Shown: positions 8,908 to 39,163 of the stretch, piece after piece
Numbering within the stretch: the first letter of the stretch is position 1
How the letters are laid out: each line of letters starts with the position of its first letter
From: Bacteroidales bacterium
GTDB taxonomy: Bacteria; Bacteroidota; Bacteroidia; Bacteroidales; P3
Assembly (NCBI GenBank): GCA_009785425.1
Contig: WQWI01000008.1
Coordinates: 1-64,000, forward strand
DNA length: 64,000 bases
Direction: 5' to 3'
The notes under the pieces: model-generated
Seen by the model: the letters and a program-made list of their open reading frames with translations, nothing else
The model's database searches: none
What the model was told of the DNA's origin: nothing
Made by a program: the position numbers and the translations under genes

Positions 8908-10029
8908 TCACAAAATCCGCCAACGCTTTCCGGGTAAAACCTCAACTATTCCGGCAATTTCTAATTGCAATAAAGTTGCAGAAAGTTTCGATAACGGCAG
9001 TTTTAACAAGTCGCAAAGTTCATCAACAATGGCTTCAGGGTGGTTTTGTAAAGCCTCGAAAACAACACGTTGATCATCGGGAAGTTCGATAAATAGTTTT
9101 TTCTGAATTTGTCTCGTCATTCCGAGCGAAGTCGAGGAAGCCCCTTGATTTTTCTCCAAGTCCCAGTTGAGCAAATAGCGAACATCTCGTGCACTTTCAA
9201 TCAATGCCGCTTTATTGGTTTTAATGAGAAAATTACACCCGGCCGAACGTTCATCATTCAATCGTCCGGGAACCGCAAACACATCACGATTGTAACTGTT
9301 GGCGATATCTGCAGTAATGAGAGCTCCGCCGTGTCGTGCCGCTTCAACCACAATCGTGGCATCAGAAAGTCCTGCAATAATGCGATTCCTCGAAGGAAAA
9401 TTCACTGCGTCGGGATTGGTTTTGGATAAAAAATCAGTCAACAAACCTCCGTTTTTAAGCATTTTTTTTGCTAAATTTCGATTCTGATGTGGATAAATTC
9501 GATCCAAACCATGGCCTAAAACTCCCACAGTTGCCAACTGATTGTCTAACGCTATTTGATGCGCCAAAGTATCGATTCCGTATGCCAAGCCACTAATCAC
9601 TAAAACATTGTCGTTTTTCAAATCCGAGAGTACGTCGGCAATCGTTTGTCGTCCGTAATCCGTACATTTTCGCGTACCAACTATACTCACAATTTTTTCG
9701 GCATTCAAATCTGCATTTCCTTTGAAATAGAGCATCAGCGGGCTATCCGAACAATGAGAAAGCCGTCGCGGATAATTTTCATCTTTGAAAAAAAACGTTT
9801 GAATTTGATGTTTTTCGATGAACAAAAGCTCTTCTTCTGCACGTTTCAATACATTTTGCGACACAATTTTTTGTGCGGTGATTCGTCCGATTTCCGGAAT
9901 TTTTTCCAAGTTTCGCTTTTTCTCTTTGAAAACGGCTTCCGCACTTCCGCAAAAATTCACAAGGCTTTTCCCGAGCTTATCGCCAATCCCGGGCAAAAGC
10001 GTTAATCCGATGTTGTAAAGTAGTTCCAT
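8908..10029 (-). CDS. dprA: DNA processing protein DprA, with in-frame repeat insertion
   Basis: SIVGTRKCTDYGRQ, SGLAYGIDTLAH, GLLTDF, FPSRNRIIAGLSDATIVVEA. Confidence 0.95.
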   Translation of the reverse strand: MELLYNIGLTLLPGIGDKLGKSLVNFCGSAEAVFKEKKRNLEKIPEIGRITAQKIVSQNVLKRAEEELLFIEKHQIQTFFFKDENYPRRLSHCSDSPLMLYFKGNADLNAEKIVSIVGTRKCTDYGRQTIADVLSDLKNDNVLVISGLAYGIDTLAHQIALDNQLATVGVLGHGLDRIYPHQNRNLAKKMLKNGGLLTDFLSKTNPDAVNFPSRNRIIAGLSDATIVVEAARHGGALITADIANSYNRDVFAVPGRLNDERSAGCNFLIKTNKAALIESARDVRYLLNWDLEKNQGASSTSLGMTRQIQKKLFIELPDDQRVVFEALQNHPEAIVDELCDLLKLPLSKLSATLLQLEIAGIVEVLPGKRWRIL

Positions 10030-21205: not shown

Positions 21206-21380
21206 TAAAAAACCCCAACACTTCACAAAACACGCCATTGAAGTTTCAAAACGTTGACCTACCAGGTTACTTAACCTTTTGAGTTTTTAATTGATTGTTA
21301 ATTTGTTATGTTTTTGCTTTTCGAGTTGTGGCTTAGATTTGGTTAGTTTCGAGTCCTTCAGGCTTAATTTTTTCAAATCC
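21206..21380 (-). ncRNA. Putative small RNA 2 (paralogue of 18209-18340)
   Basis: Minus-strand TAACTTTG box (21387-21394); weak hairpin with T-run at ~21207-21244; shares CCAAATCTAaGCCAcAACTCGAAA and CCTGGTAGG blocks. Confidence 0.45.
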
Positions 21381-21653
21381 ACAGCACAAAGTTACGACAT
21401 TTTTTTGAGAAAAACAAACCGCTCATATTTCCGTGATATTAAGTTGTTTGCGATTTACTTGTCAAAACTTCACGTTTTTTGAAATTTTGATAAAGTTGTT
21501 TGCAAATGATTACCTCGTGATGTCGCTGGGCGTGAAGGGCAAAATACCTTTTCTATTACTAAATTTTTATTAATGAACTCTAACTTAGAAAAAGAAATGT
21601 TTTGATAACAAGCACAATACGAAAATCTCTATCCCTTGTTTTATTTCTAAAAT

Positions 21654-23315
21654 TTAGTTTCTTATTTCTAAAATCCATACTGGCTCTTTTTTTGAGCCTG
21701 TATTTCGGATTTTATTTGACACTCTTAATTCTGTGATCAGATTCTTAACTTTGTTCTTCTTCTGTTTCTCGCTCATCCATTCCGGCAACATATTCCAAAG
21801 CAATTTGTTTATATCTTGCCGATTTAGACATCCGTGTTCTTTTATGGATTTCAAAACCCAATCAACATACTGCTGTTTTTCGAATGCCTTGTTTCTAGAA
21901 TACTCCGCTTTTCGCCCCGTTGATTGCGATATTTTTGCACCAATGAAATAGTTTGGTTTCCGCCCCTCGATAAGCTTCTTCTTTTTCAGTTCTTCGACGG
22001 CTTTGTCAGTTATTTCTAAATGCTTTTGAACTCTATCTAAAAGAACAACCTCACTTAAATCCAAATCGCTACGCTTTTCAATAAGTGTTTTTGAATAATT
22101 TTCATCAATTGCTTGTCCGTACATATACATGACGACCATTTGCGGATCGGTCAAAATATAATCGGGTAATGGAAAAAAGCGATTGCGTTGCGACACATAC
22201 AACGTGTGAATACCGTATCCCAAGCGGTCAATCATACCCAAATTGAACATTGCGTGAACAAGCCACGGATTGCGGTAACGATTGGGTGTTTTGTCGCCGA
22301 GACTGTATTCTTCAGGTTTTCCCTCAAAAAAACTTCCGGCGTTGGAAAAAATCAACTTATCAACTTTTTCAGTAACAATAATCCTTGATCGAAGTGAATA
22401 ATCTTGATGTGCCACGCAATTATGAATAGCCTCTAAAATACTTTTTGTGTCGTATTTATTGACAGTTGTAGCAAGTAGTTCGAAGTCGGGGTAAAACCGA
22501 ACTTGTACATTTCGGATTCGTTGCATCACTTGTGTTGTCGTTAGAAGGAACGGAACAGTAAAATGTTCGTATGCTTTTTCTTCGGCATCCAATTTCCACG
22601 TGATCTCTGCAACCGACGGAAGCAAGTAATGTGTGGATTCCGGCTTGCCTAAAAGCAAAATCGCTGTTCGAGTTATTTTTCCGTCAATCGTGATTTTTGC
22701 CCTATTTAAGAATGTAATATCGTCCCATTTGTCAACGTCGTCAGCCAATTTAGGGTATTTTTGCTTAAATTGTTTTCGTGCTTTTGAAATAGCTTCACTA
22801 TCTAAATCGTTGAGCGAAGCGTTTGGAATGATTTTTGCCGTCCAATCTTCAACAATATCTTGTTTTCTGATTCGCTCGATTTCTTCTATGTTCAACGGCA
22901 CTAACTCTTCGCCGTCTCTGCCATAATAGTGTCCTTCAAAGGCAATAGGAATACCCTTTGGAGCTGGTGGAATTTCAAGCAGAACAACCCTGCCGTTTGG
23001 ATGATTTACTTCGTAAATCTCGATGAACGTAATTCGATTGGTCATTTTGTTGGCGATTTCGCCTTTTAGATGATCCAAATCTTTTCGTGCTTTGCGAAAC
23101 TGTGAACCCACAACTTGATGCTTTTTGTTCACACCAAACACGAGCCAAGCCGAAGTTTTGTTTTTAAGATTTGCTTCGTTGCTCAACGCCGAAAAATACT
23201 TTCCCAACTTTGTGAAGTCGTATTGATTTTTGGCTTCCTTAAATTCGACAACTTCCGTTTCGGCTTCTAAAGCTAACAATTCGTGAAGTTTTTCTTTTAT
23301 TTCGTGAGATGTCAT
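21654..23315 (-). CDS. AlbA_2/Schlafen-like DNA-binding protein with ATPase-like C-terminal part
   Basis: ALEAETEVVEFKEAKNQYDFTKLGKYFSALSNEANLKNKTSAWLVFGVNK; HNCVAHQDYSLRSRIIV; own TACCTTTG promoter (23330-23337, minus). Confidence 0.8.
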   Translation of the reverse strand: MTSHEIKEKLHELLALEAETEVVEFKEAKNQYDFTKLGKYFSALSNEANLKNKTSAWLVFGVNKKHQVVGSQFRKARKDLDHLKGEIANKMTNRITFIEIYEVNHPNGRVVLLEIPPAPKGIPIAFEGHYYGRDGEELVPLNIEEIERIRKQDIVEDWTAKIIPNASLNDLDSEAISKARKQFKQKYPKLADDVDKWDDITFLNRAKITIDGKITRTAILLLGKPESTHYLLPSVAEITWKLDAEEKAYEHFTVPFLLTTTQVMQRIRNVQVRFYPDFELLATTVNKYDTKSILEAIHNCVAHQDYSLRSRIIVTEKVDKLIFSNAGSFFEGKPEEYSLGDKTPNRYRNPWLVHAMFNLGMIDRLGYGIHTLYVSQRNRFFPLPDYILTDPQMVVMYMYGQAIDENYSKTLIEKRSDLDLSEVVLLDRVQKHLEITDKAVEELKKKKLIEGRKPNYFIGAKISQSTGRKAEYSRNKAFEKQQYVDWVLKSIKEHGCLNRQDINKLLWNMLPEWMSEKQKKNKVKNLITELRVSNKIRNTGSKKEPVWILEIRN

Positions 23316-23381
23316 AGGATGTTTTTTTGCAAAGGTACGGAGTTATTTTGGACTTTTCTTATGCACAAGCATCATTTGTAT

Positions 23382-26300
23382 TTATTTAGAAATCTCAATC
23401 CTATCTCCTACAACCTTGAAACTAGTAATGTATTGCTGTTGTCTTAAAATATTTACAAATTTGAGGGTGGTTGGATTTTTTGGAATGAAGAACGCCTCTT
23501 CATTTTGGGACATACTAGAATACGGCTCGGAGAAATGTGAAAAAATATCTGAAATATCATCATTGTCAAATTTATGACTTGATTTGTTAAATAACGCGAT
23601 AACTGCCCTATTGGTTTTATCAAAATTTTTAAGCACTGCCTTTAATATACCTTTGCTAATATCATAAGGTTCTTTATTTGCAATTAATATATTTCCCACC
23701 AACTCCAGTATTTCAGCACTTTCTATAATGCTTCCTTCGTCGTACGTATTGATAATTTCTAATTTATCTTTTTGTGATAAAACTCGTGACTTTAATAATG
23801 AAATAACATCTTTATTATTTATTGATAACTCAGATAATTTTTCCGACAATTCGTGCTTCCTTACTTCTATCAATTTGATGTGTAAAGCGGATTCTTTTTC
23901 TTTTAATTTGCTGTAATTTTCTTTATTCAGACCTAGCTTATTATTTTTAATTAACAGCCTTATATTTTCATCGGATAAATTTTCAAAACTTAAAGAATTA
24001 TAATAATATGGGACAGATTTTAACAATAGGTCGTATGATTTCGCATATATTTCCTTGCTTAAAATTATTGCTTCCAAGAACTTTTTAACTGTCCCTTCAT
24101 CAGGGCTTTCCGTGTCAATTTTGAAGTTTGACAACGCCTTTGCATTTTCTTCATTATTCAAAAAGTCCAAAATATGTTCCTTCAGTTCTTGTTCATTATC
24201 GCAATAGTTATTGATGACATTTTCCCAGGTAGGCTGGATTTTAGTGTTTTGTATTAATAAATTTCTTATTTCTATGGTCTCTATTTTTTCTAAATAAAGG
24301 ATTCTTGTTTTCACTTTTTTAATAATTGCGATTTTGTCTTTCTCATCGAGTTTTTTGCTGTTTAGTAATCCTGCTAGATATTTTTCGCTTTCGTTTGTAT
24401 TTGCCTCTATTTTGAGATAAGTATTCGTAATATAATTTTTTATATTTTCGTCAATGTAATCTACTAAAATATCACAATTAGAATTTTTAATTGCGTGGTA
24501 GTTTTGTGTGTCGAAATCGACTTGATTAAACTTGCTTTTTGTTTGAATAATTTTCCTAAGCATTATCTTATTTATTTGATAATGGTTGTTTGTATATACA
24601 TAATCGAACATTTCACCCGAAATCACATCTGTATCTATGTCAGAAAATTTAATATCAAGTGTATTTAATATCTCTTTAATTTTATCTTCTTTGTACAGAC
24701 TACAAAAATCAGATCTGTCGGAGATAATTTGTTTTAAATTAGAATTCTTTGAGATTTCCTTTATATCTGAAATTTCAGCATATTTGATAATAAGCAGAAA
24801 GTACTTGTCTTTTATTTCTTCCGGCATTGACGATGAATGTACATATTTCCAAATGTTGTTACTCCATCGCCAACGACTACATAGTTCCTTTATAAATTTC
24901 TCTACATTGTATCCCGAATCTAGATATACATTGATAAATTGTATGGAATTTTCAGATTCGTTGCTCAATAAACCAAATAGTTCGAGTTTATAGCTATGTA
25001 GTTTCGTGCCGAAAAGATCATTGGAATCTAAGTGATTCAGAATAAAATTCACTAATTTAAAATTTAATATGGATTCTTGTCTAAAATCATTCACATCAAG
25101 TTCCTCTATTAAATTCTCAACATTGTCAATTTGAAAATCAAAATTCAGTTTACTTTGAGATTTTACATTTATCAAAAAAGTATTGTCATTTTGAGACAAC
25201 TCTCCTTCGTAGAAAAGCGATATATAGCGTGAGTATTCTTCGTCAATATACCCCTTTCTCAACAACAAGTTAATCAGCTCTTTTTGCTTTTCTATTGATT
25301 TTTTTTGGTCGGATTCTTTTATATCATCTTCACTATGGATTTCTACGTGATTTGAGATCATCAAATTTTTTAGAGGCTCATGTTGTAAATTTTCTCTTTT
25401 TCGTTCTAATTGCCAAATTTTTGAATTCAATTCAGAAATTCTATTTTTATTCCAAGCATCAATTTGTGCTTTCCTATCTTCATAAGATAGGCTTTCATCA
25501 ACCGCTTTCTCAATATCAGAAAATTCTAATTGTATATGATCTATTCTGTGGCTTCTATTTCCAAAATATAAGGTGTTGCTTGCAATTAAATGAGAGAAGA
25601 TCTCATCATCAAGTATCTGATCAAGAGTATAGTTTGTGTCATTCAGAATAACGAACGTAAATCCATAAGAACTTTTTTCGTTTATTTTTTTGACGTATTG
25701 AAGAACATATAAAGCTTGTAATTCTTTTACATCTTTTATTTTTAGCAATTCTAATTGTTTTATTTCTCCTTTATATCCAGCGACCTCTTTTTCTATCTTC
25801 TCGCTTTCTAGCTTAACGTAATTTTGTTTTTTATTAATTGTTTGATATAAAAATCCATCATTGTTAGTAAGCTTTGCAAAATCATTCGGACAGATATTTT
25901 TGTAGACAATCATTGCAAGCAGCTTATTATGAAATTCCTCACAGTCTACTGTAAGCATATTGTCATATATTTTGAATTCATTGATTATGTTGTAGAGCAG
26001 TCTCATTTCATCTATAAACAGAGCAATATCACTAATCAAATTTTTAGAAACATCGGTTGTTATTTTTTCGATAGACTGTCGAAGTATTTCTTTTGAGTTA
26101 GAATGATTCAGAAATGGTATAACCGGTATAATAAAATCAAAAAATTTGGTACGATCCTTATTTACAAATATATCATCTCGAATAGCATAAATGAAAACAA
26201 CATCTCTCCTAATTTTTTTTGAATTGTTGATAAGTAAATTGATTTCTCGTAATTTTGTGAAAATTTCAGTTTGTTTGAAACGATCCAGGTCTTCAATAAT

Positions 26301-27098
26301 GACAACATTGTAGTCTGTGGCTTCAAAGAAATATAAAATCTCTTCTAAATTATGATTCAAGATTGATTTATTTATATCAGGATTGATCTGTATTTCGGCA
26401 TCACTTATTTTCAATTTGCTTATTTTCAGATTGTGTAAAATGCGAATAATTTTACGTAAGAAAAGAACAACACCTATTAATACTATGGACAAAGAACTGT
26501 AATGGAGTACGACTTTTTGAACAATTGACAACTCGCTTATTGATGATGGGAAAATGTGTAGAAACACAGTTGGTTTAATCAACAAAACGAATGCTAAAGC
26601 AAAAAGGATATAACCTGAGGCTTTTAGCAATAAATGCCATCCTGTGTGCTTTTTTATTTTTTTTAACCTTGAGTCTGGTAATTTTTGATTTTTTTCTTTA
26701 TAAAATAATTGTTGAATGATACTTAATTCTATCAAACGTAACAAGTTTTCGCCCTCTGTTTTATTTTTAATTTCTTTTTCCTCGCTAAATGTCGCTAATG
26801 ATATATTCAAGAAGTGTAAGTCCTTATTGGTGTTTTCTTTTTGAAATGCTTGCAGAATACTACTTTTCCCTGACCCATAAGTGCCTGTCAAAGCTATGTT
26901 TTTAATGTTTTTTCTTTTTCGGCTACTTAATGCCCAACTTAATGCTTCAAAATAGTTTTTCCCATTCTCTATTCTGTCCGTAGGAGAGAGAGAATGAAAA
27001 AGGTTATCTTCTATGGCTTGGGGTTTGCAAGCAAACTTCTGCCATCTATTGACGAAGAATTTTTTTATTGATTCTATGCGCTTCTTTATTCTATCCAT
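23382..27098 (-). CDS. YobI/KAP-like P-loop NTPase with TM segments
   Basis: LSPTDRIENGKNYFEALSWALSSRKRKNIKNIALTGTYGSGKSSIL; two hydrophobic segments; Walker B YNVVIIEDLDRFKQTEIFTKLREIN. Confidence 0.8.
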   Translation of the reverse strand: MDRIKKRIESIKKFFVNRWQKFACKPQAIEDNLFHSLSPTDRIENGKNYFEALSWALSSRKRKNIKNIALTGTYGSGKSSILQAFQKENTNKDLHFLNISLATFSEEKEIKNKTEGENLLRLIELSIIQQLFYKEKNQKLPDSRLKKIKKHTGWHLLLKASGYILFALAFVLLIKPTVFLHIFPSSISELSIVQKVVLHYSSLSIVLIGVVLFLRKIIRILHNLKISKLKISDAEIQINPDINKSILNHNLEEILYFFEATDYNVVIIEDLDRFKQTEIFTKLREINLLINNSKKIRRDVVFIYAIRDDIFVNKDRTKFFDFIIPVIPFLNHSNSKEILRQSIEKITTDVSKNLISDIALFIDEMRLLYNIINEFKIYDNMLTVDCEEFHNKLLAMIVYKNICPNDFAKLTNNDGFLYQTINKKQNYVKLESEKIEKEVAGYKGEIKQLELLKIKDVKELQALYVLQYVKKINEKSSYGFTFVILNDTNYTLDQILDDEIFSHLIASNTLYFGNRSHRIDHIQLEFSDIEKAVDESLSYEDRKAQIDAWNKNRISELNSKIWQLERKRENLQHEPLKNLMISNHVEIHSEDDIKESDQKKSIEKQKELINLLLRKGYIDEEYSRYISLFYEGELSQNDNTFLINVKSQSKLNFDFQIDNVENLIEELDVNDFRQESILNFKLVNFILNHLDSNDLFGTKLHSYKLELFGLLSNESENSIQFINVYLDSGYNVEKFIKELCSRWRWSNNIWKYVHSSSMPEEIKDKYFLLIIKYAEISDIKEISKNSNLKQIISDRSDFCSLYKEDKIKEILNTLDIKFSDIDTDVISGEMFDYVYTNNHYQINKIMLRKIIQTKSKFNQVDFDTQNYHAIKNSNCDILVDYIDENIKNYITNTYLKIEANTNESEKYLAGLLNSKKLDEKDKIAIIKKVKTRILYLEKIETIEIRNLLIQNTKIQPTWENVINNYCDNEQELKEHILDFLNNEENAKALSNFKIDTESPDEGTVKKFLEAIILSKEIYAKSYDLLLKSVPYYYNSLSFENLSDENIRLLIKNNKLGLNKENYSKLKEKESALHIKLIEVRKHELSEKLSELSINNKDVISLLKSRVLSQKDKLEIINTYDEGSIIESAEILELVGNILIANKEPYDISKGILKAVLKNFDKTNRAVIALFNKSSHKFDNDDISDIFSHFSEPYSSMSQNEEAFFIPKNPTTLKFVNILRQQQYITSFKVVGDRIEISK

Positions 27099-27136
27099 TC
27101 TGTTTTTGTGGTTTTCATAGGTTATTCGTTCTTGTT

Positions 27137-28648
27137 TTAATACCCAAATATTTTTATTTCATCAGGTTCGACTACTTGTGGTATCGCTTCAATTTGGTCT
27201 TCATTCACAATTGAATTATTTGCGAATTCTTCTCTGATTGGTTGCTGTTGTATCCAGTCAATATTCCAAATATCAACATCTCTATCTATGACCTTTTGGC
27301 AAAGTTTTTCTGTGTAGTCTTTTTTTCGTTCTGTTTTTATTGTCAAACGTTGTAACCAAACTTGCAAATGACCTACATTTGGAATTTTATCAAATTTTTT
27401 TTCAATAGAATCTAATATTTCTGCCACTGTTTCGGGATTGGTTTCCAAAGAAAGAATTTTACTCAAAATAGCCGTTATTACAGGATATGTTCTTGGATTT
27501 CTGTAAGCAATATCAGCCAAAATGCTTACCAAAATCTTTGAATTTTCAGATTCTTGGAATAATCTCAATGGATAGATTTTTTCTTCTAAAAACCTCGTCA
27601 AAGCCGTAGCCAAACTCCCTGAATTTGGGTGTTTTTCTGCCAAAGAATGAATGAGAAATAGCTGTTTTTGTAGAGATTTACGTTCTTGCGTTGCTTCGTT
27701 CCAATACAATTTATCGGGTTTGATAACATCTCTAACTATATTGTCTGAAATAAATGTTTTTTGCGAATTAAGTTTGAGATTCAAATCAATCAATGTTTCT
27801 GTCAGTAATTTTGCAATTTTTACTACCGTTTCTTGGTTTGTAGCAAAAATCCTATAATCGTCACGATACCTCAATATCTGATAATCCTCAATTTTGTATT
27901 TTTCTTCTCTACGATTGTAATAATAAATTTTACAAGAGAGTATTCTGTCTGCGTAACCTAAAACCATTTCGGCAATAAAATCCATTAAGGCACTTCCTTG
28001 TGGTATTCCATTAGTTTGAGAATGTTGCATACTTTGAATAGTAGTGTCAATATTATCTCCTATTTCTTTCCTCTTGATACCTGCCAAGATGTCTTTTTTC
28101 ACTTTTTCTTTTCCGTGTAACGCCCACGGAATAGTATGAGTATAGATAGAGCCGTAACAATCTGTTATGTCAGTATTCATAAAACAATCATAATTTAATG
28201 CAAGTTCTAATGATTGTTGCTCTACTTGTTGCCACCAATTTGTTATTGTTTTTGCTTTATTCGGTTTTTCGCCTCCTATCGCAATAATTGGGATACTACT
28301 ACATTTTATTTTTTCATTTGCTTGAAATTTTTTAAACTGACTTGCAATATGTTTCCAATTTTCTTCTTTTGTAATTTTATTCACAAGATTTACATATATT
28401 GCTGGATTGATAAGTTGTATTGGTCGCCACGCAAATTTCCCATCTTTATTTGTTAGAAATTTGTAATTGACATCATCTAATTTCTTAGCATTTTTCAAAG
28501 CAATATTTCCAATATTTCCGTTTCGTGAAAGGGCATTTAACAATGGCTGAAAGTCAAAGTATTTCGGCAAATCAACACTACTATAACTTTCCTGTTTCAG
28601 AAAAAACTCTCGCGCGTCTGTATGCGATAATTCAAGGATTGTTCTCAT
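27137..28648 (-). CDS. Reverse transcriptase of defence-associated (Abi/UG-like) type
   Basis: TDITDCYGSIYTHTIPWALHG, NGIPQGSALMDFIAEMVLGYAD, ILRYRDDYRIFATN; long helical C-terminal extension; no intron or retron context seen. Confidence 0.8.
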   Translation of the reverse strand: MRTILELSHTDAREFFLKQESYSSVDLPKYFDFQPLLNALSRNGNIGNIALKNAKKLDDVNYKFLTNKDGKFAWRPIQLINPAIYVNLVNKITKEENWKHIASQFKKFQANEKIKCSSIPIIAIGGEKPNKAKTITNWWQQVEQQSLELALNYDCFMNTDITDCYGSIYTHTIPWALHGKEKVKKDILAGIKRKEIGDNIDTTIQSMQHSQTNGIPQGSALMDFIAEMVLGYADRILSCKIYYYNRREEKYKIEDYQILRYRDDYRIFATNQETVVKIAKLLTETLIDLNLKLNSQKTFISDNIVRDVIKPDKLYWNEATQERKSLQKQLFLIHSLAEKHPNSGSLATALTRFLEEKIYPLRLFQESENSKILVSILADIAYRNPRTYPVITAILSKILSLETNPETVAEILDSIEKKFDKIPNVGHLQVWLQRLTIKTERKKDYTEKLCQKVIDRDVDIWNIDWIQQQPIREEFANNSIVNEDQIEAIPQVVEPDEIKIFGY

Positions 28649-31482
28649 ACTCGACCCCCCTCAGCTATCTTGATTTCTTCTGCCGTCAGTCCATACAACC
28701 CATAAACAATCTCATTGATTTTATCTTCGCTGTATTCAATCCGTGATTTTATCTGCTCAATGCGATTTGGAACAGTTGCAGATTGTAGTTTTTCATTCAG
28801 TTGTAAAAGTAAATCTACGTTTTTTACAATTTCGTTCTGTGCTTGGATTTCTAACTTATTTTTTAAGTCAATTAATTTTATCGGAAGAGGCTTTAAATTA
28901 ACTGTTTTTACTTGGGCAAATACTCGTCCGCTTTCTTGAACTTTACTTTGATACAAGAAATTTAGTAGTTTGCTATTGTAAATACCCAAAAAATACTTGA
29001 TGTCAATTTGATCTGTCAGTAAATGTAAAACGTGTGTGCTATCAAGTGAAAAATAACCTTCTCTGTCAAGCGTAGCTACAATTTTGTCGCTTGTTTGCCG
29101 ACTAATAATTTTTGCAGGAACATTAAACATTTTTTCATCTGTATTGCTCCATAAATCTTTTGGCGAATAATAAACATAAGTGTCGTTAAATGATGTGGAA
29201 TAACGGTTAATATCCCTACCTTTCAAAATTGGTTTCCATTGCTTCGTTTTTGCTTTGTCTGAAAGAAACCTTTTGTTGTCGCCCGTAATTATTCCTTGAT
29301 AAACTTTCACTATTGAGCCAAGCTCTACTACATTCTTTTGTCGACATATGTTTCCGAGAATTTTTGAAACCCCTTTATTCATTGTTAAATTAAAATCAGA
29401 GGAACTCAAAAAATCTTTTTGCGGAACTTTATTTATTGTAGGATTTTTAAAATCTTCAAAGGAATCTATAGCTATGATATTTGCATCCTTTCGCTTATTT
29501 GTTTTAGAATGGACGAACACGGCATTACCGCCTATTTCCGCATCTCCAAAAACTTTATATCGTAAATCCATAATGATGTCGAATCGTCCAGAGTCAAGCA
29601 TTAGTTTTCTGATTGGCTTGAACGAAATAGTGTTATACAACGAATTTGGAACGATAAAAGAAAAATATCCCTTGTCCGCCACAAGAGAAAGACTTTTTTC
29701 TATGAATAATGCGAATAAATTTACTTTATATTCAAATCCCGCTTTGTAACGAATTTGGTAATAATCTAAAATCGCTTTTTCCTGTGACTCTTGTTTTTTG
29801 CCAAGTTGTAGTGTACGATACGGCGGATTCCCAATCACACAATCAAAACCGCCTTGTGCAAATACTTCGGGGAAATTCTTTTGCCACGAAAACGGCTTTA
29901 CTTTTCGGTCGTCGCCAAAATCCAATTCGCCATCATAATAATCAAGGTCAATCAAACTGTTTCCGCTTTTGATATTGTCGTCCAAAGTTGGTAAAATGCG
30001 GTCGTGAAACATTTTGGTTTGTGCCTCGATACTCTCTTTGGTCTCGCCCTCCATGCATTTGAGCAACAGCGAAAGTTTCGTAACCTCAACGGCATTGCTG
30101 TCCAAATCCACACCAAAAATATTGTTTAGCAAAATTTCTTTCTTTTTGGCGGTAGTCAATTCGCCCATTGGTGTCAATGGGTTATTTTTACCGCCTTTGC
30201 TTGGTTTGCCGTTTTCGGAATAAAAGTCTTTGTGCCAATTCAACAGATATTGGTAGGCACCAATCAAAAAACTTCCACTTCCACAAGACGGATCAACAAT
30301 TTTGATTTTGCTGACTTCTTTCGGAGTTTTACCTTTTATTAATTTTCCGACAGTATGTTCTACGATGTAATCAACGATGTATTGTGGAGTGTAATAAACT
30401 CCGCCTGCCTTACGAACTTCGGGTTTGTGTTCAATTGTTGGACGCCCACCGACTTTCGATAGTGTGATTTGTTTGCCCAAAAATTGTTCGTAAGCACTTC
30501 CCAAAATCTCTACCGATAAAACCGAAAATTCATACGGACATTTTGGATAATATAATTCTTCAATAATACTCTTGATAACCTTGTTATCAACGGCAATTTC
30601 AGGACTTAATTTATCTTTGCTAAAATCGAAAAGTCCTGAATTATACTTGTTGTCGGCACTATGAAAATCTTGAAGTAGGTTTTCGTAGTATTCTCCCGAC
30701 TGAATGGAGATTTTTAAATTTTCGTAAGGCTCAACGCCTCTATCTTCGGCGATACGCAGAAAAATAATGCGATCAATGATGGTTTGCACCAAAAAATTCA
30801 ACTGCTCCTCATCCACATTATTACGAAGTGCAATGTTTTTCGCAAGTTCAACACGCCATTTATCAAGCGAACACAGAAAATCATGATCAACGGTTGTTGT
30901 TCCTTTTTTGTTTCTGTCGCTCTGAATATATTTGTCAAAACTGCCTTTCAGCACACGCTCTTTGCTAAACGTGTCCCAAATAAAATCAAATTCGGCGATG
31001 TAATCGGAATAGGTCAGATATTTTATTCGTGCGACACTCGCTTTGTCGGTTGGCTTGGGCTTATTAGAACAATCATAAATTGCAAGTTCTTCAAAGTTGG
31101 TAATGACGCTAATCGGCATTTTTGCACTCCAACCGTAACGACGAATTTGATACGCTGGTTCGATTTCGTTTTTGATTGCTACGCTTGGTTTTTTCGCTTC
31201 AAGAAAAAACAATCGCTTTCCGCCCGGAAGTCGAAACGAATAGTCAGGTGCCTTGGTTGCTCCGCCAATTTTTATGCGGTCTTCGTGAATAACTTCTCGA
31301 TAACTCTCCGCATAACCTTGCTCGTTGTCAATGTCCCAGCCGAGTGCTTTCCAGAACGGATTAATGAAATCCTGTCTTGTTTGCATTTCGTTGTAGTCCT
31401 TATTTTGATAGAACTCCTTCTGCTCATCGAAACGTTGAACAAGGGACTTGATTATTTTTAATGCTTTTTCTTTGGTTTGCAT
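28645..31482 (-). CDS. Type IIG-like restriction-modification enzyme (Eco57I-type methylase with N-terminal nuclease)
   Basis: N-terminal PDYSFRLPGGKRLFFLEAKKPS (PD-(D/E)XK-like), IVDPSCGSGSFLIGAYQYLL, CVIGNPPYRTLQ, C-terminal specificity-type region. Confidence 0.88.
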   Translation of the reverse strand: MQTKEKALKIIKSLVQRFDEQKEFYQNKDYNEMQTRQDFINPFWKALGWDIDNEQGYAESYREVIHEDRIKIGGATKAPDYSFRLPGGKRLFFLEAKKPSVAIKNEIEPAYQIRRYGWSAKMPISVITNFEELAIYDCSNKPKPTDKASVARIKYLTYSDYIAEFDFIWDTFSKERVLKGSFDKYIQSDRNKKGTTTVDHDFLCSLDKWRVELAKNIALRNNVDEEQLNFLVQTIIDRIIFLRIAEDRGVEPYENLKISIQSGEYYENLLQDFHSADNKYNSGLFDFSKDKLSPEIAVDNKVIKSIIEELYYPKCPYEFSVLSVEILGSAYEQFLGKQITLSKVGGRPTIEHKPEVRKAGGVYYTPQYIVDYIVEHTVGKLIKGKTPKEVSKIKIVDPSCGSGSFLIGAYQYLLNWHKDFYSENGKPSKGGKNNPLTPMGELTTAKKKEILLNNIFGVDLDSNAVEVTKLSLLLKCMEGETKESIEAQTKMFHDRILPTLDDNIKSGNSLIDLDYYDGELDFGDDRKVKPFSWQKNFPEVFAQGGFDCVIGNPPYRTLQLGKKQESQEKAILDYYQIRYKAGFEYKVNLFALFIEKSLSLVADKGYFSFIVPNSLYNTISFKPIRKLMLDSGRFDIIMDLRYKVFGDAEIGGNAVFVHSKTNKRKDANIIAIDSFEDFKNPTINKVPQKDFLSSSDFNLTMNKGVSKILGNICRQKNVVELGSIVKVYQGIITGDNKRFLSDKAKTKQWKPILKGRDINRYSTSFNDTYVYYSPKDLWSNTDEKMFNVPAKIISRQTSDKIVATLDREGYFSLDSTHVLHLLTDQIDIKYFLGIYNSKLLNFLYQSKVQESGRVFAQVKTVNLKPLPIKLIDLKNKLEIQAQNEIVKNVDLLLQLNEKLQSATVPNRIEQIKSRIEYSEDKINEIVYGLYGLTAEEIKIAEGGRV

Positions 31483-31508
31483 AGCGTTGTTGAGCTATAA
31501 GTGTTCTG

Positions 31509-31540
31509 CAAAGATACTCATTTTTCCCGAGTTATACAAA
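31509..31540 (-). promoter_or_regulatory. Promoter of the RM-RT-NTPase operon
   Basis: Minus-strand TATCTTTG (31516-31509) with TTTG (31540-31537) 20 nt upstream. Confidence 0.6.
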
Positions 31541-31576
31541 ATAAGTTTTCAACAAAAAAATGTTTGACTATCTGGG

Positions 31577-32236
31577 TTATTTCGAAGTCGCACCATATAC
31601 AAACTTCTTCTTGATTTGCCCGCCTTCAATGCTCACGATTGCTCTGCATTTTCCGCCATTATGAAGCACATCTTCAACCACTACTTCTTTGCCTTGTCTG
31701 AGTCGCTCGATTTGCTCTAAATTGAGTGTTTTGTTGCCAACGGTTATGGGATTATTCATTTGGTTATTGGCGTTCACCAACCATTGTGGCATTGTCGGCT
31801 TGCTCGGCTCTGTATTGCCACCATTCGGCTGGTTTTTGCTGTCATAATACTGCTCAACTTTCGCCAAAATTTTATAGACTTCTGTCGTGTATTTCAGAAT
31901 TTCGTCCATCTGCTTGTTGCCTTTTTCAAGCAAGATTTCGGCATCTTCGTAGATGTGGCTTGCTTGAATAAAGCGTGTTATTTGATTGAAATTTGTACAG
32001 ACGATTTTAACGTGTGTTGTGAAATCGTTGATTGCAATGTTGGTTTTTCGGGCTGTTTTATCGTAGGTTGTTAGGGTAAATTCTTTCTTGAACAGGCAGT
32101 GCCGAATGTAACTTGATTGGTTTCCATAACCGTGTTTGGCTATGTTTTCCAAGAACAAAGCGTGTTCCTTGGGAGTGAGTCGAATTTTTAGATTTACAGT
32201 TCTGTTTTCCGTTTCTTTTTTTGTTTTTTGTGTCAT
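31577..32236 (-). CDS. MobC-like mobilization protein with DUF3945-like C-terminal motif
   Basis: VNLKIRLTPKEHALFLENIAKHGYGNQSSYIRHCLF; C-terminal NLEQIERLRQGKEVVVEDV. Confidence 0.65.
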   Translation of the reverse strand: MTQKTKKETENRTVNLKIRLTPKEHALFLENIAKHGYGNQSSYIRHCLFKKEFTLTTYDKTARKTNIAINDFTTHVKIVCTNFNQITRFIQASHIYEDAEILLEKGNKQMDEILKYTTEVYKILAKVEQYYDSKNQPNGGNTEPSKPTMPQWLVNANNQMNNPITVGNKTLNLEQIERLRQGKEVVVEDVLHNGGKCRAIVSIEGGQIKKKFVYGATSK

Positions 32237-32274
32237 AATTTTATATTTTTAAGTTGTTAGAAAATCCGACTTTG

Positions 32275-32340
32275 GAGGATTTTCATCCTCGCAGAGGCAA
32301 GGTCTTTTGTGGGGCGTGTCCCACAAAAGTACACCTTGCC
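32275..32340. repeat. Two hairpins upstream of the MobC-like gene (oriT candidate)
   Basis: GAGGAT-TTTC-ATCCTC (32275-32290) and GGCAAGGTCTTTTGTGGGGCGTGTCCCACAAAAGTACACCTTGCC (32296-32340). Confidence 0.75.
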
Positions 32341-32563
32341 AATCGCCGATGCGATTATTTTTTTGTTGGTATGGTATTGTTTTTTCTTTTCCAAGTCTAA
32401 AAGATGCAGGGTTGGATTTGCGGTGAGTGGCATTCTTGTTTTAGATAGTTTGTGAGTTGTTTTTTTGTTTTGGAGTTTGGGTTGGGCTGTTTGTTTTGTT
32501 TTTTATATTTTGGCTATTTTTTCAATTTAATGAATTGATATTTCGGCTTTTGACTGTCTGCAA

Positions 32564-32644
32564 TGTTTGTATTGTCTGTATATAATGCACTGTTTGTATT
32601 GCCTGTGTATGTTGTATTGTCTGTATTGCTTGTGTAGATAATGG
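32564..32644 (+). repeat. Three 27-nt iteron-like direct repeats
   Basis: TGTTTGTATTGTCTGTATATAATGCAC / TGTTTGTATTGCCTGTGTATGTTGTAT / TGTCTGTATTGCTTGTGTAGATAATGG, back to back. Confidence 0.75.
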
Positions 32645-32670
32645 GAAGCCCTGTCCCCACAGGGCTTCCC
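32643..32670. repeat. 28-nt hairpin next to the iterons
   Basis: GGGAAGCCCTGT-CCCC-ACAGGGCTTCCC; could be the terminator of the Xis-like gene. Confidence 0.9.
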
Positions 32671-32713
32671 AGTGCCGTTGTTTTTTTTGTAATTTTTAGT
32701 TGAACCTCCTTTT

Positions 32714-32974
32714 TTAAGTGTTTAAATATTCTTTAATTGCGAATTCTGAAATCAATCCGGTTTTCGTTGATTTAATCGCCCCACTCGAAACCATAGATTT
32801 TATGGTGCGATGAGCCTTGCCAAGTCGTTTTGCAACTTCGTTGATTGTGTAAAGTTTTTCAACTTCACTTTTTCTTTTCTCTGTTTCATCAATACCTTTT
32901 CTAACGGCATCAGAAATCAGTTCTGCCAGTTGTTCGCCCGGAACAATCACGGCTACATTGTTTTGTTTGCTCAT
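32714..32974 (-). CDS. HTH/excisionase-like protein
   Basis: LYTINEVAKRLGKAHRTIKSMVSSGAIKSTKTGLISEFAIKEYL. Confidence 0.75.
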   Translation of the reverse strand: MSKQNNVAVIVPGEQLAELISDAVRKGIDETEKRKSEVEKLYTINEVAKRLGKAHRTIKSMVSSGAIKSTKTGLISEFAIKEYLNT

Positions 32975-33294
32975 AATAATACTGTTTTTATCGTTTTTGG
33001 TTAAATTATTTTGCAAAGTTACGGAATAGAAGCCGACAAAACAAGTCTTTTGTTAAATTATTTTGAAAGAATGTGCTTTCGTAATAATGCATATTGCCAG
33101 CATAATTAAGCATTTCAAAGAAGTTTTATGTGAAATTTAATTTTTATTCACAATCTCATCAATGTTTGTAAAATAATATGATAAGACGCACAAAATCACA
33201 CAAGTTGATAAAAAATCACAAATTTCATCAAAAAAAATCGTAACTTTGCAAAATAATATAAAGCGAAACACAAAGCAATCAAAAATACTTACGC

Positions 33295-33732
33295 ATGAAA
33301 TACCAATCAAAAAACCGAGAAGAACGCCTACAAATGTGCCATCAAATGATTAAACGTTTGGAAGAATTTATACATCTCAAAGGTCAAACATTTAATGAAC
33401 TGACACAGGAATTACAATTGTCTTCGGCTTATTTCTCTGCTCCAAAAAGAGGGGAGGGGGTCTTCGGAGCAGATGTCGTTGTTATGATTCTTGGTTACTA
33501 TCGCGATATGTCGCCGGATTGGTTTTTATTTGGTAGTGGCTCCAAATTTCGTGGCACGGCATTAGAGGCAAACAAAGTTACTTCCATTTCTGTCAAAAAA
33601 AACAAACTGGAAGCCGATTTAAGAAAAAGCCTTGAAAAAACGAAGAAGATGTCAAGCACGCTACAAAAACTGCAATCCAGCACCGAAAAATCATTGGGCG
33701 AATTCGAGAAACTTCTTTCTAAGGTAAAATAA
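33295..33732 (+). CDS. HTH regulator-like protein with coiled-coil tail
   Basis: LEEFIHLKGQTFNELTQELQLSSAYFSAPKRG; TAACTTTG promoter upstream. Confidence 0.6.
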   Translation: MKYQSKNREERLQMCHQMIKRLEEFIHLKGQTFNELTQELQLSSAYFSAPKRGEGVFGADVVVMILGYYRDMSPDWFLFGSGSKFRGTALEANKVTSISVKKNKLEADLRKSLEKTKKMSSTLQKLQSSTEKSLGEFEKLLSKVK

Positions 33733-34339
33733 CGATCCTTTTTTTACTCATTCTCACCTTTTCATCAATCCGCTCTTTGATGTCCATCAATAGTTGCGGT
33801 GTATAATCGTTGAGTTCAACACAGCAGTTATATTTTTTGGGACTGCCTATCGCTTCAATTGTTTGTTCGTTATCGTGCGTGTGTCCGTAGATATGGTAAA
33901 GGTTATTATAGTTTCCTGACCAACTCGCAAGCGGGTAATGACACGCCAAAAAATGATAACCATTGTAGCGTATTTCTGCCATATCGCCAACAAATAAAAA
34001 CTTGTCGGATTTTCTTTCCGCTTTTTCCACATCGATACGGCGGTCGTGATTTCCGATGATAAATATCTGTTTGCCATTGAGCCGAGCAAGGATTTTTTGC
34101 CAATCCCAACCTTTCCATATAAAATCGCCCAAATTGATAACAATATCGTTTTCGCCAACAACAGAATTCCAATTTGCGATGATGATTTCATTCATGTCTT
34201 CTACCGATGCAAACGGACGATGGTTGCAATGCTTGATAATGTTGGCATGACCAAGATGCAAGTCTGATATAGCAAAAACTTTTCCGTCGTCGCCGGCTAT
34301 TGTCAGATAGCCGTATTTTCCTTTTTGTGTTACTTCCAT
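33719..34339 (-). CDS. Calcineurin-like metallophosphoesterase
   Basis: AISDLHLGHANIIKHCNHRPF, IIGNHDRRID, HIYGHTHDNEQ. Confidence 0.9.
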   Translation of the reverse strand: MEVTQKGKYGYLTIAGDDGKVFAISDLHLGHANIIKHCNHRPFASVEDMNEIIIANWNSVVGENDIVINLGDFIWKGWDWQKILARLNGKQIFIIGNHDRRIDVEKAERKSDKFLFVGDMAEIRYNGYHFLACHYPLASWSGNYNNLYHIYGHTHDNEQTIEAIGSPKKYNCCVELNDYTPQLLMDIKERIDEKVRMSKKRIVILP

Positions 34340-34354
34340 GATTTCAAATGTTTT

Positions 34355-34555
34355 TTAGGTTATTAAATGTTCGAAAAACGCCTTATTAACAGGCTGTCGC
34401 ACGTTTTTCGATGATTGCTTTTCCATTAATTCATAGCAATGTCTAAACCATTCCTGGTCAATTGGTTTTCCGTTTTCGTCGTCGTTAAAAAATACGTACT
34501 CACGATAGCCCGGAATAGGCTCTTTCATGTCTTTGGTAATTTTCCATGTTTTCAT
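34355..34555 (-). CDS. Small hypothetical protein
   Basis: 66-aa ORF lying collinearly between integrase and phosphoesterase genes. Confidence 0.5.
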   Translation of the reverse strand: MKTWKITKDMKEPIPGYREYVFFNDDENGKPIDQEWFRHCYELMEKQSSKNVRQPVNKAFFEHLIT

Positions 34556-34581
34556 AATTTTAGATATTTAAGGTTAATAAA

Positions 34582-35781
34582 TTACAATCCGGCAATCGCC
34601 TGATTAAATGCATTCATAGATTCGACTTTCTGACTTTGCAGAATCTTGGCGTAAATCAACGTAACTTTCAACGAGGAATGTCCGAGAATTTTACTAATCA
34701 CTTCGAGTTTCATTCCACTATCAAGTGCCAGTGTAGCAAAAGTGTGCCGAGCACAATGGAGCGTTATCGCCTTCTTGATATCGGCGATTTTCGCAAGTTC
34801 TTTCAAGTAACGATTAAAAACTTGATTGGTCGGCACAGAAAAGACGGCTTCGTTGTCGCTCTTTTTTCCTTTATCCGGCAACATTTTTTTGGCTTCGTTT
34901 ATCAAAGGAATATTAACGGGCTTATTGGTTTTGTGCATCGTCAAAACAATAAAATCGTCTTTGATGTTTTCGAATTTCAGCCCTTTCAAATCTTGATATC
35001 GCAATCCAGTGTAGCAAGTGAATAAAAACAAATGCAAGATTTTTTTCAATCTTCTGTCTATAATCAAGTCGCCCGAATAAAGTTTTCGAAAGGTTTGCAG
35101 TTCGTCCATCGTGAGAAATTCACGCTTGCCCTCAACACTCTTGATTTTTACCTTATCGAAATCGTGGCTATCTAACAGCCCCTTGTTTATTGCTCGATTC
35201 AAAAACGATCTGATGATGCTTAAATCTTTGTTCCAAGTGTTTGTCTCGTTCCCTGACACGATCATCCATTTCTTATAATCCATCAGAAATTTGTAATCGA
35301 TATCCGATAATTTGAGGTTACTACGAAAACGCTCCAACTTTGTGAGTTTTGCCAAATAAGTGCGTTTTGTTTCTTTGGAAAGCGTGATATCTTCCTCAAT
35401 TTCAGCCTTTGCAAATTTAAAATAGTTGTCCGATGTAGTTCTTCCGAAGAGAGCCATTTTCAAACCTTCGAGAGTTTGTGGCTTTTTTTTGATTTGGCAG
35501 TCGGCGGTATAAGCCTTTGTCTGAGCATCGTAAAAATCGAGCATTTTGTTCTTATCCCAATGTTCAAATTCGTGCTTATTGACACGTTGTTTTCCATCGT
35601 CCCAGTTTTTCGGATTCACCAGTAATGGCAAGGCAAATCGGTGCTGACGATTGTTAAAATTTGTCCGTAAATAGACGGTTGTTTGTCCTGTTTTTGAAGC
35701 GTAATCTTTTCGTACGATAAACTTCGTTGGAGAATGTTTCATAAGTTGAAATTTGTGGCTTTTTTCTGGCTTAGATTTCAA
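34582..35781 (-). CDS. Tyrosine recombinase/integrase
   Basis: CYTGLRYQDLKGLKF, HCARHTFATLALDSGMKLEVISKILGHSSLKVTLIYAKI. Confidence 0.95.
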   Translation of the reverse strand: MKSKPEKSHKFQLMKHSPTKFIVRKDYASKTGQTTVYLRTNFNNRQHRFALPLLVNPKNWDDGKQRVNKHEFEHWDKNKMLDFYDAQTKAYTADCQIKKKPQTLEGLKMALFGRTTSDNYFKFAKAEIEEDITLSKETKRTYLAKLTKLERFRSNLKLSDIDYKFLMDYKKWMIVSGNETNTWNKDLSIIRSFLNRAINKGLLDSHDFDKVKIKSVEGKREFLTMDELQTFRKLYSGDLIIDRRLKKILHLFLFTCYTGLRYQDLKGLKFENIKDDFIVLTMHKTNKPVNIPLINEAKKMLPDKGKKSDNEAVFSVPTNQVFNRYLKELAKIADIKKAITLHCARHTFATLALDSGMKLEVISKILGHSSLKVTLIYAKILQSQKVESMNAFNQAIAGL

Positions 35782-35875
35782 CTAAAAACTACAAAAAGGG
35801 GGGATATTTCTTGAACGACACTTTTTTGAAAAGCAACATTTACAATGTTTTACTGTATTTGTTGCTTTGTCGTAG

Positions 35876-35946
35876 TTGACCTACCAGGATTCGAACCTAG
35901 ACGAACAGAACCAAAATCTGTCGTGCTGCCATTACACCATAGGTCA
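35876..35946 (-). tRNA. tRNA-Gln(TTG)
   Basis: TGACCTATGGTGTAATGGCAGCACGACAGATTTTGGTTCTGTTCGTCTAGGTTCGAATCCTGGTAGGTCAA folds as a cloverleaf with anticodon TTG; terminator hairpin with GCAACA arms downstream. Confidence 0.93.
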
Positions 35947-36055: not shown

Positions 36056-39000
36056 ATGAAGAACTACAAACGTCTTAACCTTATCATCGGCTTAATCATT
36101 GGAGTCGTTGCATGTACGGTTTACATCATGACTGCCGAACGCAGTGCAAGCTGGTGGGATTGCGGACAATTCCTCGCAACAGCATTCAAACTTCAAGTGG
36201 GACACCCTCCCGGAGCTCCAACATTCCAACTATTAGGAAATCTTTTTACCCTACTCGTGGGACGAGACCCAATGTTGGCTGGCTTCATGGTTAATGTACT
36301 GTCGGCTGTCGCAAGCGGACTTTCAATCATGTTTTTGTTTTGGACAATTACAATACTTGGTAAAAAATTAGCCTCAAAGTATGGTGAAATTACAGACACA
36401 AAAATGTGGGCAATCTTCGGTAGCGGATTAGTCGGAGCAATGGCTTTCTGCTTTTCCGATGCTTTTTGGTTTTCGGCTGTAGAAGGTGAAGTTTATGCAC
36501 TCTCAGTGTTTTTCACTGCAGTAACATTTTGGGCGATATTGAAATGGGACGAAGAAGCCGACAAACCGCATAGTTTGCGGTGGATTATTCTAATCGCATA
36601 TTTAGTTGGCTTGTCTATTGGTGTCCACCTCTTGAATTTACTGGTGATTCCGGCGATTGTATTCATCGTTTATTACAGAAAGTTTCAACCAACACGCAAG
36701 CGTTTCTGGGTTGCACTTGCAACTTCTGTTGTTTTGCTCGGTGGGATTTTGTGGGGGGTAATTCCTTATATCGTTCACTTTGCAGGACGATTTGAATTAC
36801 TTTTTGTAAATGGTTTCGGCTTGCCATTCAACTCAGGGGCTATTTTTTGGTTCGCATTACTTATCGGAGGAATTACTTGGGGAATCCATTATTCTATCAA
36901 AAAAGGCAAAGTGATTTTGAACACGGCATTGCTTTGTTTGACGTTTCTTTTAGTCGGATATTCAACGTATTTTATCGTGATTATCCGTGCAACTGCCGAA
37001 ACTCCTCTCAATTTTGGAGCACCAAAAAACACGTTCGCTTTGTTGGATTATTTGAATCGCGAACAATACGGTACCCGTCCGTTGGTTTACGGCAGTTCTT
37101 TCACAGGAAGTGCTCTTCGTATTGAAGAGCGTTCGCCAAGATATACACGCAACTACGAAACCAGACGATACGATAGAGTTGGTGCGAATATGCGAGTTGT
37201 TTGGGATCCTACACACACCGGATTGTTTCCGCGTATGCATGCTATGTCTAACGAGCCAGGTCGTCCGAATATAGATTTTTACCATTTCTTTGGCAGAATA
37301 ACACCGAGATTTTACACCTGCCCGAGAACAGGCGAACAGCGACAAATGAAGCCAACCTTTGCAGAAAATATGCGATTTTTCATTCGTTATCACCTCGGCT
37401 GGCAATACATGCGATATTTCATGTGGAATTTTGTCGGACGACAAAACGATATACCGGGAAGGGGCTTCGATGTGCAAGGGAATAGAGATGTATTCCACGG
37501 AAATTGGATTAGCGGAATACGATTTATTGATGAGGCTCGCCTCGGACCTCAAACCAACTTGCCGGATTTTCTAAAATATAATCAAGGGCGAAACACCTAC
37601 TTCTTCTTGCCATTGATTTTAGGATTGATAGGATTATTCTATCAATACCGAAAAGACAAAAATAATTCGTTTGTTACGTTTTTGCTATTTTTCATGACCG
37701 GAATTGCGATTGTAATCTACCTCAATCAGCCTTCTACCGAGCCTCGCGAGCGAGATTACTCCGTTGTTGGCTCGTTCTACGCTTTCGCTATATGGATCGG
37801 ACTTGGTGTAATGGCAATTGCCGATTTTCTGCAAAGAAAAGCCAAACTCAGCGGCAAACTCGCCGCAGGAGTTGCCACGGTGGTAACATTTTTGGCAGTT
37901 CCAACGTTGATGGCTCAACAAAATTGGGACGATCACGACCGCTCTCAATTATTTGCCGCACGAGATGCTGCACGAAATATGCTCAAATCCACCGAACCGA
38001 ATGCGATTATAATTTGCAACGGAGACAACGATACATTCCCACTTTGGTTTGCCCAAAATGTGGAAGGTTTGCGACCTGATGTACGGATTATCAATTCCGC
38101 TTTGGCTGGAAGTCATTGGCATATTCTGCCACTATTTAACACCGTTTACCAATCTGCACCGCTGAACCTTACATTAACCAGAGCAGATTATCAGCAAGGA
38201 ACTAATGATGCTGTTTTTATTCAAGACAGAAATGTTGGTCGTCGTGAATTGATAGAGCTGATTAGGTTCGTTGGCAGTGATAATCCAAACACTCAACTTA
38301 CATTGGCCAGTGGCGAAGCTACAAACTTTTTGCCAACCACACAATACGTTTTGACGATTGACCGTGACGATCTTTTGGCAAGAGGCATCATTACCGAAGA
38401 GCAGCACATGTTCACGGTTACGCAAATGGAACATGATATTGATGTGGGCAGATGGAACAGGATCCATCGTTCGGATTTAGCATTTTTGGATATTTTGGCG
38501 AGCAACAATTGGGAACGCCCGATTTATGTAACTAGCCCGTGGGCACAACGCCACATTTGGCCTATTACACAATTTGCACAAATGGAAGGAACTCTTCATC
38601 GCTTTGTGCCGTTTCATAATCCGAACAGAGGTCTCACTAACGCAGGGGCGAACGGCATTGCAACGGACAGAACCTATGACTTGTTTATGAACGTATTCAC
38701 ATCATGGGGAAATGTCAATCACCCAAGAGTTAGAATTTGTTTTGATACTCGCCGTACGGCACAAAACCAACGACATCAATTTGGTTTTCTCGCACAGGCT
38801 TTGATTGTTGATGGAAGAATGGAAGATGCAGTTAGAGTTTTAGATAGAGCATTGTATCTTTTCCCGCATCGCAACATTGATTTTGATCCGTCGATGATTT
38901 TCTTTGTTCAGTCTTATTTCCGAACAGGCGAAACCCAAAAAGGCTTAGAATTAGCCAATAAATTGATAGGTATCTATGAAAGAAATTTGCTTTACTTTGA

Positions 39001-39163
39001 GAGTTTTCCACCAAGACACCGTAGGTTTTTAGAGTCTCATATACAAGAATCTCTCACAGTATTTATGCACTTACGTCACCTGCTGCAAGGATTTGAAGAA
39101 GAAAGCCAAGAACTATTCGAGCGTTTAGACAACCTTTTAGCAATCCGAGGATTTCATGAATGA
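36056..39163 (+). CDS. DUF2723 membrane protein (PMT/glycosyltransferase-like)
   Basis: ERSASWWDCGQFLATAFKLQVGHPPGAPTFQLLGN; multiple TM segments. Confidence 0.88.
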   Translation: MKNYKRLNLIIGLIIGVVACTVYIMTAERSASWWDCGQFLATAFKLQVGHPPGAPTFQLLGNLFTLLVGRDPMLAGFMVNVLSAVASGLSIMFLFWTITILGKKLASKYGEITDTKMWAIFGSGLVGAMAFCFSDAFWFSAVEGEVYALSVFFTAVTFWAILKWDEEADKPHSLRWIILIAYLVGLSIGVHLLNLLVIPAIVFIVYYRKFQPTRKRFWVALATSVVLLGGILWGVIPYIVHFAGRFELLFVNGFGLPFNSGAIFWFALLIGGITWGIHYSIKKGKVILNTALLCLTFLLVGYSTYFIVIIRATAETPLNFGAPKNTFALLDYLNREQYGTRPLVYGSSFTGSALRIEERSPRYTRNYETRRYDRVGANMRVVWDPTHTGLFPRMHAMSNEPGRPNIDFYHFFGRITPRFYTCPRTGEQRQMKPTFAENMRFFIRYHLGWQYMRYFMWNFVGRQNDIPGRGFDVQGNRDVFHGNWISGIRFIDEARLGPQTNLPDFLKYNQGRNTYFFLPLILGLIGLFYQYRKDKNNSFVTFLLFFMTGIAIVIYLNQPSTEPRERDYSVVGSFYAFAIWIGLGVMAIADFLQRKAKLSGKLAAGVATVVTFLAVPTLMAQQNWDDHDRSQLFAARDAARNMLKSTEPNAIIICNGDNDTFPLWFAQNVEGLRPDVRIINSALAGSHWHILPLFNTVYQSAPLNLTLTRADYQQGTNDAVFIQDRNVGRRELIELIRFVGSDNPNTQLTLASGEATNFLPTTQYVLTIDRDDLLARGIITEEQHMFTVTQMEHDIDVGRWNRIHRSDLAFLDILASNNWERPIYVTSPWAQRHIWPITQFAQMEGTLHRFVPFHNPNRGLTNAGANGIATDRTYDLFMNVFTSWGNVNHPRVRICFDTRRTAQNQRHQFGFLAQALIVDGRMEDAVRVLDRALYLFPHRNIDFDPSMIFFVQSYFRTGETQKGLELANKLIGIYERNLLYFESFPPRHRRFLESHIQESLTVFMHLRHLLQGFEEESQELFERLDNLLAIRGFHE

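Follow-up and report, generated by a model that had tools for sequence, protein, structure and literature searches.

Three adjacent minus-strand genes in a 64,000-nucleotide stretch of Bacteroidales DNA (hereafter the window) encode a type IIG restriction-modification (RM) enzyme, a reverse transcriptase-like (RT) protein and a membrane NTPase, in this order and all behind one consensus Bacteroidetes promoter. The locus is most probably the defence cargo of a mobilisable-type island integrated at a tRNA-Gln gene, in which known genes are stacked behind that promoter and would act as successive layers. Judging from the families to which the genes belong, what is new is the arrangement, on a mobile island, of single-gene defence systems that are already known. 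An earlier note on this DNA had read the three genes as a new composite antiphage module; the defence role of all three and their shared promoter have support in the sequence, while the composite module was not borne out.

Organisation of the transcription unit

The three minus-strand open reading frames described in the earlier note were recovered at 28645–31482 (RM), 27137–28648 (RT) and 23382–27098 (NTPase). As described there, the stop codon of the RM gene and the start codon of the RT gene overlap in an ATGA (28645–28648, within GAGTATGAGAACA), and 38 nt separate the end of the RT gene from the start of the NTPase gene. Bacteroidetes promoters have a consensus made up of a -33 and a -7 box, against which the site upstream of the RM gene (TTTG-N20-TATCTTTG, 31509–31540, minus strand) is a perfect fit. 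Across the window the pattern (TTTG, spacer of 18–22) is seen 21 times, six-fold more than the 3.4 occurrences predicted by shuffling, and none of 100 shuffles attained 21 matches. A pattern scan of the minus strand over 21419–31508 gave no full match apart from the 31509–31540 site, in agreement with the single promoter that had been claimed, and RM, RT and NTPase are predicted to be co-transcribed.

A fourth co-directional gene, overlooked in the earlier note, lies 66 nt downstream of the NTPase gene (21654–23315, minus strand). It encodes a 553-aa protein with AlbA_2 (Schlafen) and HATPase_c_4 domains according to Pfam, and no further cargo gene separates it from the att repeat described below. 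It probably has a promoter of its own, since a candidate -7 box (TACCTTTG, 23330–23337, minus strand, with no good -33 box) lies within 26 nt that recur with 96% identity elsewhere in the same genome (L138:9474–9499), and that second copy directly precedes an unrelated gene (start codon at 9502).

Families of the three genes

The product of the RM gene (945 aa) is assigned to type IIG by PADLOC (REase_MTase_IIG, 647 bits), as the earlier note had suggested. Nuclease, methyltransferase and specificity domains are all found within its single chain, as HSDR_N, Eco57I/N6-MTase and TaqI_C (specificity domain, residues 750–868) in Pfam, and it carries a PD-(D/E)xK-like PDYSF..FLEAK (residue 79), the SAM motif DPSCGSG (397) and NPPY (552). 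The same genome contains a second type IIG copy (G000:C1:23183-26125, equivalent to L138:5184-8132), of which the DNA is 86% identical to that of the window gene over roughly the first 542 codons (about 90% for the protein), while the remainder is an unrelated specificity half (38%). This pattern looks like an exchange of target-recognition domains.

The RT gene encodes a 503-aa protein for which the earlier note had proposed classification by HMM. PADLOC places it in the AbiP2 family of protein-primed, RT-like polymerases with 636.6 bits over nearly the whole chain (residues 1–502, positions 4–484 of the 489 in the profile), the runner-up family being UG14 with 164 bits. It also matches the crystal structure of Abi-P2 from P2-EC30 (PDB ID: 7R08) over its full length, with 37% identity (E=8.6e-90), and its Tyr30 aligns without gaps with the priming residue Tyr61. 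Tyr30 and the catalytic D160, D263 and D264 are invariant in all 81 aligned sequences, and the three RT signatures reported earlier (DITDCYGS, GIPQGSALMDF and RYRDDYRIF) are present. The Abi-P2 enzyme is a trimer in which priming is carried out by Tyr61 (Figiel-type work, PMC9508834).

Two other assignments were rejected. The NCBIfam model for group II intron RTs gives 48.7 bits, where its cut-off is 300, and no intron RNA is found by Rfam, of which the only match in the window is a tRNA; the earlier note, too, saw no group II intron or retron ncRNA context. An ncRNA-dependent mode of the DRT2/DRT9 type is disfavoured by the 4-nt overlap upstream of the RT gene, the 38 nt downstream and the absence of an Rfam family, an argument that covers the intergenic space and Rfam families, whereas an ncRNA might lie within the coding sequence. 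The scarcity of intergenic room together with the lack of an Rfam match favours the Abi-P2 mode over the DRT2/DRT9 one.

The NTPase (1238 aa) matches Tmn in PADLOC with 337.4 bits (residues 34–1097, positions 26–1128 of the 1273 in the profile) and YobI-ATPase in Pfam with 398 bits. It has one Walker A motif (GTYGSGKS, residue 72), the sequence VIIEDLD at residue 266 and, in the hydropathy profile, two hydrophobic stretches (windows starting at about 154–169 and 192–206), which fits its earlier description as a YobI/KAP-like P-loop NTPase with transmembrane segments. Tmn has been described as an NTPase of the KAP family that has two transmembrane domains of an unusual kind and whose mechanism is unexplored, and is handled as a stand-alone system (PMC11846954).

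Abi-P2 and restriction-modification operons

The genomic context of Abi-P2 was surveyed at 80 loci from many phyla, all taken from one contig scan. An HsdS domain is found in 15 of the 54 genes immediately upstream of the RTs and an HsdR domain in 9 of the 40 immediately downstream (Pfam/PADLOC). When HMMs for HsdS, HsdM and HsdR were built from the loci and applied to the RT strand up to 5 kb away, 26 of the 80 loci had M/S-type genes upstream and/or an R gene downstream (17 had both), although a few of these 26 are not type I, as the HsdM model also picks up related N6-methyltransferases such as IIG enzymes. The RT strand is shared by 64 of the 65 RM genes at these loci; S and M genes lie upstream in 41 of 46 cases and R genes downstream in 18 of 19. 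The usual order is hsdM-hsdS-RT-hsdR, and many of the RTs overlap hsdS by 4 nt. The enrichment is judged only by this fixed order and strand, in a survey confined to Abi-P2 RTs. Nests of the hsdS-RT-hsdR kind are seen in many phyla (L030–L077, e.g. L031, L041, L047, L053, L054 and L064).

Other RM types also occur next to Abi-P2: two cases involve type IIG enzymes, a planctomycete locus (L050) with an Eco57I + TaqI_C gene upstream of the RT and locus L070 with an MmeI-type gene downstream, and on a Pediococcus plasmid the RT is followed by a 922-codon DNA methyltransferase gene. An E. coli plasmid carries a P2-like prophage whose only defence-like gene is Abi-P2, between portal and replication genes, and Abi-P2 is also found in the P2-EC30/EC58 and pro147 records. 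Two distantly related Abi-P2 RTs, from Odoribacter (L002:6940-9669) and from a Rickettsiales MAG (L066:4730-7390), each have a pyruvate phosphate dikinase gene upstream, and the two dikinase genes are 60% identical to each other; this is a common housekeeping gene, and the coincidence may be due to chance.

To explain the distribution of RM-linked RTs over the RT tree, 17 changes of the label are required, of which at least 12 fall on starred branches; RM linkage has been gained or lost repeatedly. The window RT belongs to a clade from Bacteroidota (10 rows, SH-aLRT 95) in which none of the nine other members is RM-linked, so that its pairing with the RM gene is an independent association, either a chance stacking or another instance of a recurrent preference. 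The adjacency claimed in the earlier note is recurrent as an RM-RT pair in the Abi-P2 family at large, but neither in the clade of the window RT nor as a trio.

The constancy of order and strand at the 26 loci raises the question of whether Abi-P2 is silenced by, or monitors, the upstream RM enzyme and is freed when a phage anti-restriction protein disables it, Tmn being an added neighbour. We consider this unlikely as an account of the window. It would agree with the frequent hsdS overlap, with the second pairing of an Eco57I-class IIG enzyme and an RT in the planctomycete, with the overlap of the window RT with the RM stop codon, and with the precedent of PrrC, which a linked type I RM system keeps silent until a phage anti-restriction factor activates it (PMC2610378). 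However, some two thirds of the loci surveyed have no such RM neighbour, P2-like prophages carry Abi-P2 free of RM, the well-supported clade of the window RT holds no other RM-linked member, and the RM types vary (I, IIG, MmeI), which makes one conserved physical contact hard to imagine. By analogy, a coupling of RT and RM as in PrrC/EcoprrI is possible. Equally doubtful in our estimation is the formulation in which Abi-P2 enzymes are back-up effectors of RM systems, placed beside the specificity subunit or domain (type I, IIG), which would sense disabled restriction and abort by untemplated DNA synthesis, the window representing the IIG version with Tmn added.

The mobile island

The genes are carried by an island of 14.6 kb (21253–35888), which had also been overlooked in the earlier note. 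Its integration site is the 3' end of tRNA-Gln(ttg) (35875–35946, minus strand), and it has a 14-bp repeat at both ends, the distal one (GTTGACCTACCAGG) at 21253–21266 and the proximal one, exactly the same as the 3' end of the tRNA, at 35875–35888. Starting from the tRNA, domain models identify an adjoining tyrosine integrase (34582–35781), an HTH_17/excisionase-like protein (32714–33016) and a MobC_2/Bacteroidales MobA-like mobilisation accessory protein (31577–32236), all on the minus strand and followed by the four cargo genes. A calcineurin-like metallophosphoesterase (33719–34339) is also encoded between the integrase and the mobilisation gene. No relaxase gene is evident among the open reading frames and domain matches of the island. 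The defence genes begin just after the mobilisation accessory gene, at the spot where a relaxase gene might be expected.

The G+C content is 29–35% over the NTPase and RT genes, compared with 41–46% over large parts of the flanks. In a congeneric genome, tRNA-Gln adjoins a homologue (70%) of the window gene at 36056–39163, and neither integrase nor cargo genes are found at its 3' end. The island is a lineage-specific insertion of 14.6 kb.

The apparent lack of a relaxase suggests that parts of the island may be decaying, in which case some of the genes could be non-functional or silent and merely hitch-hike. We regard such a passive cargo as very improbable, considering that the open reading frames are full length, the catalytic and priming motifs are intact and the promoter matches the consensus.

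Distribution of the trio

Within the order, 395 genomes were searched, 6 of which have Abi-P2, 9 Tmn and 47 the RM family of the window. Neither RT nor Tmn adjoins the RM gene at 28 IIG RM loci, the Tmn loci have no RT, and none of the 80 Abi-P2 loci has Tmn near the RT or an RM gene of the window's close type. The RM-RT-Tmn trio was thus not found at any of 80 Abi-P2, 28 IIG or 10 Tmn loci. A further 379 genomes of the phylum added one Tmn, in G557, where a different type IIG gene (PADLOC PDLC03612, 773 bits) is followed after 130 nt by a distant Tmn and then by AbiE. That locus (L186, G557:C35:205000-222000) is a defence island in which type IIG RM, Tmn and AbiEi/AbiEii follow one another, while DSR1 is encoded on the opposite strand.

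In one genome (G365), the closest Tmn (51%) occurs alongside an RT 70% identical to that of the window, but the two genes are on different contigs (5.4 and 4.1 kb). They may share one locus. It was rejected as a second case of the trio, as the gene just after the RT (244 aa, ending at the contig edge) is not Tmn, with no Tmn match by BLASTP, Pfam or a Tmn HMM. Viral or plasmid carriage of the trio was likewise discarded: IMG/VR has one Abi-P2 relative, no Tmn was found in IMG/VR or in phage records, and the plasmid matches inspected have RT and Tmn apart.

Two of the observations that the earlier note had named as speaking against a new composite module have been made, namely that each gene belongs to an already named family (type IIG, Abi-P2 and Tmn in PADLOC) and that the three are not adjacent at the loci surveyed. 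An obligate three-gene system, for which the single promoter, tight spacing and common strand could be invoked, is hardly credible when the trio is not found elsewhere and both RT and Tmn are seen without RM and without one another.

A probable layered stack of defence genes

Under the preferred reading, that of known defence genes stacked on an island, type IIG RM, Abi-P2 and Tmn would each be competent alone. The RM enzyme would cut incoming DNA devoid of its adenine methylation; where it fails, the Abi-P2 enzyme would carry out Tyr30-primed, template-independent DNA synthesis leading to abortive infection; and Tmn would provide a further, membrane-linked response. We infer these steps, and with them the layering, activity and independence of the three proteins, from their gene families. 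The reading is based on the full-length or nearly full-length PADLOC/Pfam matches of each gene and the intact priming tyrosine and catalytic aspartates; on the occurrence of Abi-P2 with no other defence genes in a P2-like prophage and of Tmn as a system in its own right; and on the absence of the trio elsewhere, the island with its ends, integrase and tRNA, the island-free tRNA-Gln of the same genus and the single promoter. Two points count against it: Abi-P2 is present in RM operons (26 of 80 loci) much more frequently than a free mixing of genes would produce, which, along with a distant Tmn after a IIG gene, means that adjacency to RM may carry function, and G365 has both a close RT and the closest Tmn, though on separate short contigs.

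The locus clearly illustrates how a small integrated element can bring named but unrelated defence genes, here three, under one promoter, and such stacking helps to explain how defence repertoires move jointly. The more useful outcome is the survey itself, in which RM operons with a fixed order account for about a third of the 80 Abi-P2 loci. This nesting makes loss of restriction as the trigger of Abi-P2 a concrete hypothesis, and deserves follow-up.

Comparison with known systems

Like type IIG enzymes of the Eco57I class (PADLOC PDLC03604), the window RM protein combines an endonuclease-like N terminus, an N6-adenine methyltransferase and TaqI_C in one chain, but its gene is followed by two further defence genes on the same predicted transcript. 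PrrC and RloC are nucleases that act on tRNA, and their RM partners are of type I. The window resembles EcoprrI-PrrC and RloC in that an operon places an effector gene beside RM specificity, which by analogy would serve as a back-up when restriction fails, whereas its effector is a polymerase and the coupling to RM is hypothetical here. DRT2 and DRT9 rely on an ncRNA beside the RT. They too provide antiphage defence by an RT, and DRT9 likewise makes DNA by protein priming (PMC12489045); in the window, however, the RT start overlaps the RM stop, only 38 nt follow and no Rfam ncRNA family matches. With Tmn (PADLOC PDLC02220; PMC11846954) the NTPase shares the YobI/KAP P-loop, the two hydrophobic stretches and a model match over most of the chain, although it is distant (a 337-bit PADLOC match) and has other neighbours. 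Compared with Abi-P2 of the E. coli P2-EC30 prophage (PADLOC PDLC03744), the window RT follows a type IIG gene and belongs to an integrated island instead of a P2 prophage, and it begins at the position of chain residue 32 in 7R08, lacking the N-terminal extension, while the two are alike in their full-length homology, priming tyrosine, catalytic aspartates and aligned helical C-terminal domain region.
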